DNA of 64,000 nucleotides from Chloroflexota bacterium (GTDB lineage: Bacteria > Chloroflexota > UBA11872 > VXNJ01). A program made the translations under genes and the position numbers. The notes beneath the pieces were generated by a model. That model made no database searches, was not told the origin of the DNA, and saw nothing but the letters and a program-made list of their open reading frames with translations. Every line of letters starts with the position of its first letter. Position 1 is the stretch's first letter. Shown here piece after piece: positions 3,040 through 4,077 of this stretch. The stretch covers positions 62,001-126,000 of the forward strand of contig VXNJ01000009.1 in assembly GCA_009840625.1 (NCBI GenBank), read 5' to 3'.

Positions 3040-4077
3040 CTACAGCGGCTTGCGGGCCAGAAAGCAGTAAAGCGGCGTAAATATCCCGGTTTTGCCGCCC
3101 GCGACGTAGGCGTTGGCGGTGCGGTCCAGCAGCGCGATGACTTCCGCGGATCCCTTGGGAAACATCCCCAGCGATTCGGCCAGCCGGGACGCCCCGATCA
3201 TCACCTTGCGGCCCAGCGGAATCCTGCGCAGGGCGTTGTCCAGCGTGCTGCCCGGCGATTCCATGGGCCGGTACCACGGCGTGGCCGGACTGTTCTCGTC
3301 GACGGCCCGATCCGACGCTTCAATGATCTCGAAGCCAGCCTTTTCGAGCGCCCGGTCCACTTCGCCCATCGTCGCGATTTCATTGAGCGCGATGCCGTGC
3401 ATCAGGTCCTTCTTGAGGGCCCGGTGCCGATCGTCGCCGGGATCAAACACGTCCGTCAGGCACATCTCCTGTCCCCAGAAGAGGGCGCCGGGCTTGAGCA
3501 CCCGGTAGATCTCGGCGAACGCGCCCGCCTTGTCTGGGGCGTGGCACGTCGATTCGATCGCGTATCCCCGGTCGAATGCGCCGTCCGCAATGGAGTCCAT
3601 GTCCATGAAGCTGCATGAGAGCAAGTCGATCATGTGGCCGAGTCCGGCTTCGGCGTTCAGCGATTCGGCCGTCTCCAGCTGGATTTCGCTTTTGTTGATC
3701 CCGACCGCCCTGACGCCGGTCTCCCGGACCACGCGGCGCATCGGGCCGCCGATCCCGCAACCGACGTCGATCACCGACATGCCTTCGCGCAATTCGAGCT
3801 TGGCCATCATCAGCCGCTGGTGCCGGATCTGGGACTCCTCCAGGCTCTCCTTCGGCGAAAGCGGCGCGAAGTGGAGGGATTCGCCCCAGCCGAACACCAT
3901 GAGCTCGCTGCAAAGGTCGTAATACTCCTGGACGGTACCGGCATGGTCGTAGCCCGTCGGGCCGGAAGACTCTGCGTTCGCCCGTTCCATCCACTCGTCG
4001 AACCGCTTGACGCGACCGTGGACGTCCGACCCGCGGTACGCGGTCTTCAACCCGTGGGATAGTTTGCGAAGCTGCAC
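3040..4077 (-). CDS. Sterol 24-C-methyltransferase-like SAM-dependent methyltransferase
   Basis: This 345-residue protein (GTG start) matches the Erg6/SMT family along its length. An N-terminal segment holds FGWGESLHFAP (62-72), the aromatic sterol-binding motif of SMTs. The SAM-binding motif I is DVGCGIGGP (104-112). IESTCHAPD (174-182) and RVLKPGALFWGQE (192-204) follow in the family order. The C-terminal region (about 283-343) ends GGKTGIFTPLYCFLARKP, as in the Sterol_MT_C domain. The expected reaction is methylation of a sterol side chain at C-24. No sterol-cyclisation or squalene-epoxidation gene is in the window, so the substrate may be made elsewhere or taken up. Other small-molecule methyltransferases share the core fold, but the first and last motifs favour SMT. 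Confidence 0.8.
   Translation of the reverse strand: MQLRKLSHGLKTAYRGSDVHGRVKRFDEWMERANAESSGPTGYDHAGTVQEYYDLCSELMVFGWGESLHFAPLSPKESLEESQIRHQRLMMAKLELREGMSVIDVGCGIGGPMRRVVRETGVRAVGINKSEIQLETAESLNAEAGLGHMIDLLSCSFMDMDSIADGAFDRGYAIESTCHAPDKAGAFAEIYRVLKPGALFWGQEMCLTDVFDPGDDRHRALKKDLMHGIALNEIATMGEVDRALEKAGFEIIEASDRAVDENSPATPWYRPMESPGSTLDNALRRIPLGRKVMIGASRLAESLGMFPKGSAEVIALLDRTANAYVAGGKTGIFTPLYCFLARKPL

Follow-up and report, generated by a model that had tools for sequence, protein, structure and literature searches.

C28-C30 steranes are read as fossils of eukaryotes or sponges. A preliminary description of a 64,000-nucleotide stretch of DNA (the window; positions 62001-126000 of contig C9 in a 2.27 Mb genome that is 96.6% complete) had assigned one bacterial gene to the sterol 24-C-methyltransferases and noted neither an oxidosqualene cyclase (OSC) nor a squalene epoxidase nearby. 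We asked whether the gene belongs to the sterol methyltransferases (SMTs), which reaction its product might catalyse, and where a sterol substrate would come from.

Identity of the window gene

Family matches and full-length orthologues ruled out a chance open reading frame or a wrong frame. Pfam analysis of the encoded protein led to a C-terminal Sterol_MT_C match of 60.3 bits (cut-off 21.7) besides matches to Methyltransf_11 and CMAS, and the order of domains, a SAM methyltransferase followed by Sterol_MT_C, is that of the SMT/Erg6 family. The full SMT architecture proposed earlier was thus borne out, and the motifs quoted for it are present (Table 1). With phmmer the protein scored 233 bits against plant SMT1 (40% identity) and 202 bits against yeast Erg6 (35% identity), and the best non-SMT structure reached 75 bits. 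An AlphaFold2 model (pLDDT 83.9, pTM 0.84) matched class I methyltransferases such as sarcosine/dimethylglycine methyltransferase, AtmM, RebM and SpnF, followed lower down by GPP and FPP C-methyltransferases; the matches listed did not include an SMT structure of eukaryotic type. Neither NCBIfam nor PHROGs gave a specific name for the protein.

In a tree rooted with generic methyltransferases, the clade of the window protein (clade B), a second SMT type (A) and two eukaryotic SMTs formed one group at 100/100, the outgroup consisting of three rows with tocopherol methyltransferase not among them. The phylogeny thus places the window protein inside the SMT group, as the preliminary description would have it, and the tree together with the C-terminal domain ruled out a generic methyltransferase or CMAS. 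By the available sequence tests, the window gene is a genuine SMT relative.

Table 1. Positions of the features discussed. Numbers without prefix refer to the window, the others to the contig (C) or locus (L) named.
Feature	Position	Strand	Remarks
Clade-B sterol C-methyltransferase gene	3040..4077	-	345 aa, GTG start
Region I, residues 60-70, MVFGWGESLHF (Erg6 Y81-F91)	3868..3900	-	Y81 to M60, F89 to L68; from alignment, Region I according to PMC5711494
SAM-binding motif DVGCGIGGP, residues 104-112	3742..3768	-	common to Erg6, SMT1 and clade A
IESTCHAPD, residues 174-182	3532..3558	-	E175 (Erg6 E195) kept, A196 to S176; from alignment
QEM, residues 203-205, replacing Erg6 YEW (223-225)	3463..3471	-	invariant in 83/83 clade-B sequences
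Sterol_MT_C domain, residues 283-344	3046..3231	-	Pfam, 60.3 bits, cut-off 21.7
Second SMT of the genome (SMT-A)	C11:16075-17094
F3, F1, F2 and F4 of the genome	C1:279241-287608		61-77% identical to L035 proteins
GPP34-P450 fusion (F1), L035	L035:7230-9347	-
GPP34-P450 fusion (F1), own genome	L123:14475-16532	+
Further F2 (MMPL) paralogue, 54%	C10:10136-12595
Further F2 (MMPL) paralogue, 48%	C1:51932-54367
HpnC, HpnD, HpnE	C18:60450-63750 (L150:5450-8750)
Epoxidase-OSC fusion, Nitrospirota MAG	L139:7365-10997	+
Epoxidase-OSC fusion, Nitrospirota MAG	L145:9128-12796	-

Active site

Alignment of 83 clade-B sequences (Erg6 numbering) revealed both the family's catalytic residues and a set of clade-specific replacements. 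W85, H90, F91, E98, D125, GCGxGGP, E195 and E224 are retained, as is D276 in 80/83 sequences with Asn in the other three; the conserved acidic and histidine residues of the SMT family (H90, E98, D125, E195 and D276) are all found in the window protein. The exchanges Y81M, F89L, E108Q, A196S, Y223Q and W225M occur in 83/83 sequences and D177S in 81/83. The aromatic sterol-binding motif FGWGESLHFAP of the preliminary description is therefore present as a sequence, but its aromatic character is kept only in part: in Region I of the window protein W85 and F91 are retained and position 83 is aromatic, whereas Y81 and F89 are replaced, as are Y223 and W225 of the YEW motif. Since Region I (Y81-F91) steers the carbocation through aromatic contacts (PMC5711494), clade B would be expected to differ in its substrate or its product, and the Region I exchanges suggest something other than the conversion of desmosterol to 24-methylenecholesterol. 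With invariant changes in the active site, C-24 specificity cannot be assumed, and the '24-C' of the earlier assignment is not supported as stated. SMT-A of the same genome, 46% identical to the window protein in a local alignment, differs from clade B in retaining F89 and YEW, and is 51% identical to plant SMT1.

Distribution of clade B

Scanning 84,980 species, each represented by one genome, led to 504 confirmed relatives, the best 80 of which are all of the window type, with 67-78% identity. The metagenome-assembled genomes (MAGs) carrying these best 80 are labelled Chloroflexota/Dehalococcoidia/SAR202, Dadabacteria, Acidimicrobiia, Gemmatimonadota, Alpha- and Gammaproteobacteria, Nitrospirota, Nitrospinota and Truepera. 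Clade B thus spans at least eight phyla, and many of its carriers are sponge MAGs, in agreement with the partly sponge-associated lineages mentioned in the preliminary description. The SB06xx series is presumably from Ircinia ramosa. MPN-series accessions are bins from Aplysina aerophoba (PMC5649159), and the prefixes RHO, COS, IRC and APA would fit the sponge species of PMC8163846.

Clade B is supported by an SH-aLRT of 100, and its stem measures 1.17 changes per site (estimated by a quick method). Its supported branches force at least five label changes for Chloroflexota, six for Pseudomonadota and three for Gemmatimonadota, so that horizontal transfer between phyla would be the simplest account of the tree. 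Among 400 Chloroflexota genomes 22, from four families only, carry clade B (64-78% identity); A-type and other SMT-like copies reach 35-46%, and everything else is generic with at most 82 bits. A scan of viral contigs gave no relative. A binning artefact is unlikely, because clade B is found on long contigs of many MAGs and on chromosome-titled records (OX638325, OX638353, OX638332, OX638327, OX638292 and OX638324).

A five-gene cassette

The neighbourhoods of 81 clade-B loci were compared by single-linkage families, whose counts include some paralogues within F1 and F2. Four families recur: F1, a fusion of GPP34 and P450 domains (52/81 loci); F2, an MMPL transporter that matches Sterol-sensing and Patched above the Pfam cut-off (41/81); F3, a KshA-like Rieske oxygenase (36/81); and F4, an FAD amine-oxidase-like protein (26/81). 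An ERG4/ERG24 reductase joins the locus in 10/81 cases, and Pfam detected an AcrB-like pump in nine loci of Gemmatimonadota and Gammaproteobacteria. Pairwise distances of the five cassette families, clade B included, correlate with r of 0.33-0.84.

In the genome of the window, orthologues of F1 to F4 lie together on contig C1, leaving B, on a separate contig, as the sole separated member of the cassette. Across 61 genomes (the own genome and relatives, which as related genomes are not independent counts), F1 occurs in 20/20 genomes with B, in three without B, and neither is found in 38; F2 orthologues are found in exactly the 23 genomes bearing F1. SMT-A is missing in 7/20 of the B genomes and occurs without B in two genomes of the set. 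Three genomes from a single family (G027, G029 and G035) carry F1 and F2 but lack the B SMT, which may reflect either loss or a cassette working without methylation.

The fusion of GPP34 (Golgi phosphoprotein 3) to a P450 is about 690 aa long with GPP34 at the N-terminus, and standalone GPP34 proteins are also present in these genomes; a literature search for such a fusion in sponges gave nothing relevant. Two more F2 paralogues were observed in the own genome (Table 1).

Sterol and squalene genes of the carriers

Neither squalene epoxidase (PF08491) nor the C-terminal domain of squalene-hopene cyclase (SHC) and OSC (PF13243) had a match in the 96.6% complete genome of the window, and the epoxidase-cyclase pair of a de novo sterol pathway was accordingly not found. 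The absence noted earlier for the neighbourhood therefore holds, and it extends to this genome-wide search. HpnC, HpnD and HpnE all scored above their curated cut-offs, indicating that squalene should be made; this squalene operon stands in a genome where neither SHC nor OSC was found. SMT-A lies beside an ERG4/ERG24 reductase (421 bits), whose nearest structure is a delta-14 sterol reductase, and a Rieske oxygenase of the KshA-like type.

Among 46 genomes (own and relatives, other near-complete B genomes included) none had an OSC-class match. Such matches were detected in 9/50 other B genomes, with the motif read in six of them, and strong SHC-class matches in about 22/50 (four read), the remaining B genomes having neither. 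Strong cyclase matches in other B genomes were considered as OSC and rejected, as the examples read turned out to be SHC. In Nitrospirota from sponge MAGs, B and F1 lie next to a complete cluster for de novo sterol synthesis: a squalene epoxidase-OSC fusion, SMT-A, a P450, a 3-beta-HSD-like gene, an ERG24-like reductase and an SdmA-like Rieske oxygenase (415 bits, below the model cut-off of 600). The fusion matches PF08491 with 85 bits and the OSC model with 728 bits, below that model's own cut-off of 851, and contains the motif VSDCTAE. Two such fusions, each next to P450, ERG24-like, SdmA-like and SMT-A genes, are given in Table 1; fusions of this kind are already known (PMC10070321).

Probable function and alternatives

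Taken together, B is probably a sterol side-chain C-methyltransferase in a horizontally shared tailoring cassette that would act on scavenged sterols. This reading builds on the observed homology, clade, conserved cluster and co-occurrence. It is supported by Sterol_MT_C, the SAM motif, the 100/100 grouping with SMTs and the retained catalytic residues, by a cluster kept in other phyla, the co-occurrence with F1 and F2 and the sterol neighbours in Nitrospirota, and by the lack of an epoxidase or cyclase match in the own genome and of any OSC-class match in 46 genomes. As most carriers, including the window's genome, have no sterol-building enzyme, they probably modify host-derived sterols. The sterols would come from a eukaryote living with the bacterium as its host (probably a sponge) and be handled by the MMPL transporter F2; the oxygenases and/or the flavoenzyme may alter the nucleus or install a double bond in the side chain, and B would move a methyl group from SAM onto a side-chain alkene, giving a carbocation quenched by proton loss. 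Several points count against this account: most characterised MMPL/RND proteins are exporters, which speaks against an uptake role of F2; B is not beside the cassette in the window's genome; about 3.4% of that genome may be missing; and the cation-stabilising aromatics of Region I and YEW are lost.

The squalene operon likewise counts against it by making a triterpene substrate possible. Botryococcus triterpene methyltransferases evolved from SMT, and B could in the same way methylate the cell's own squalene, for which no consuming cyclase was found; the changed pocket residues would also agree with this. We regard such a function as unlikely, because the cluster partners are of steroid type (KshA_C, sterol-sensing MMPL, ERG4/ERG24), B adjoins a full sterol pathway in Nitrospirota, and SHC is present in many other B genomes. 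That B is an ordinary SMT on self-made sterols, with OSC and epoxidase either encoded in what is missing of the genome or belonging to an unrecognised type, would be compatible with the incompleteness, the squalene operon and the OSC-class genes of 9/50 other B genomes; without an epoxidase or cyclase match in the own genome, and with no OSC-class match in 46 genomes even where B genomes are near-complete, it appears improbable. The KshA-type oxygenase and the P450 might instead point to sterol breakdown or detoxification, with methylation marking or blocking the side chain. This is quite improbable, as ring-degradation genes do not recur in the cluster neighbourhoods and 10 of the loci include an ERG4/ERG24 reductase, as biosynthetic pathways do.

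A bolder version of side-chain methylation gives clade B a new specificity, for example as the C-26 SMT behind 26-methyl sterols or as an enzyme for host sterols that have been oxidised, and has it move from phylum to phylum within sponges; as a whole we consider it rather unlikely. 26-Methyl sterols are the precursors of the sponge biomarker 26-methylstigmastane. The enzyme making them is still unknown (PMC10070321), and clade B would be a concrete candidate; C-26 methylation is possible and would be of consequence, but no result favours C-26 over another position.

Comparison with known systems

According to Brown et al. (2023; PMC10070321), sponge symbionts are among the uncultured bacteria that possess SMTs; the majority of the enzymes assayed there methylate C-24 of desmosterol, three reach 24-isopropyl, and an SMT of Chlamydiae occurs without other sterol genes. 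Like clade B, these SMTs combine methyltransferase and Sterol_MT_C domains and come in part from sponge metagenomes; they were retrieved by searching with the yeast protein, and the clusters discussed there contain OSC, erg and sdm genes. The main text describes neither the clade-B signature nor the cassette with GPP34-P450, MMPL and KshA-like proteins nor the distribution across phyla; the clade, its cassette and its spread look new unless clade-B members are among the 24 enzymes tested there. As the clade is shared by many bacterial phyla of sponges, mostly without OSC, remodelling of host sterols by symbionts may occur, and if so the sponge side-chain pattern may be partly microbial.

The bacterial sterol pathway (epoxidase, OSC, SdmA/SdmB and ERG24) adjoins B in Nitrospirota, whereas epoxidase and cyclase were not found in the window's genome. 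Compared with eukaryotic SMT1/Erg6, clade B carries Y81M, F89L, E108Q, Y223Q and W225M in all members; the window protein shares with them the domain order, the SAM motif and H90, E98, D125, E195 and D276.
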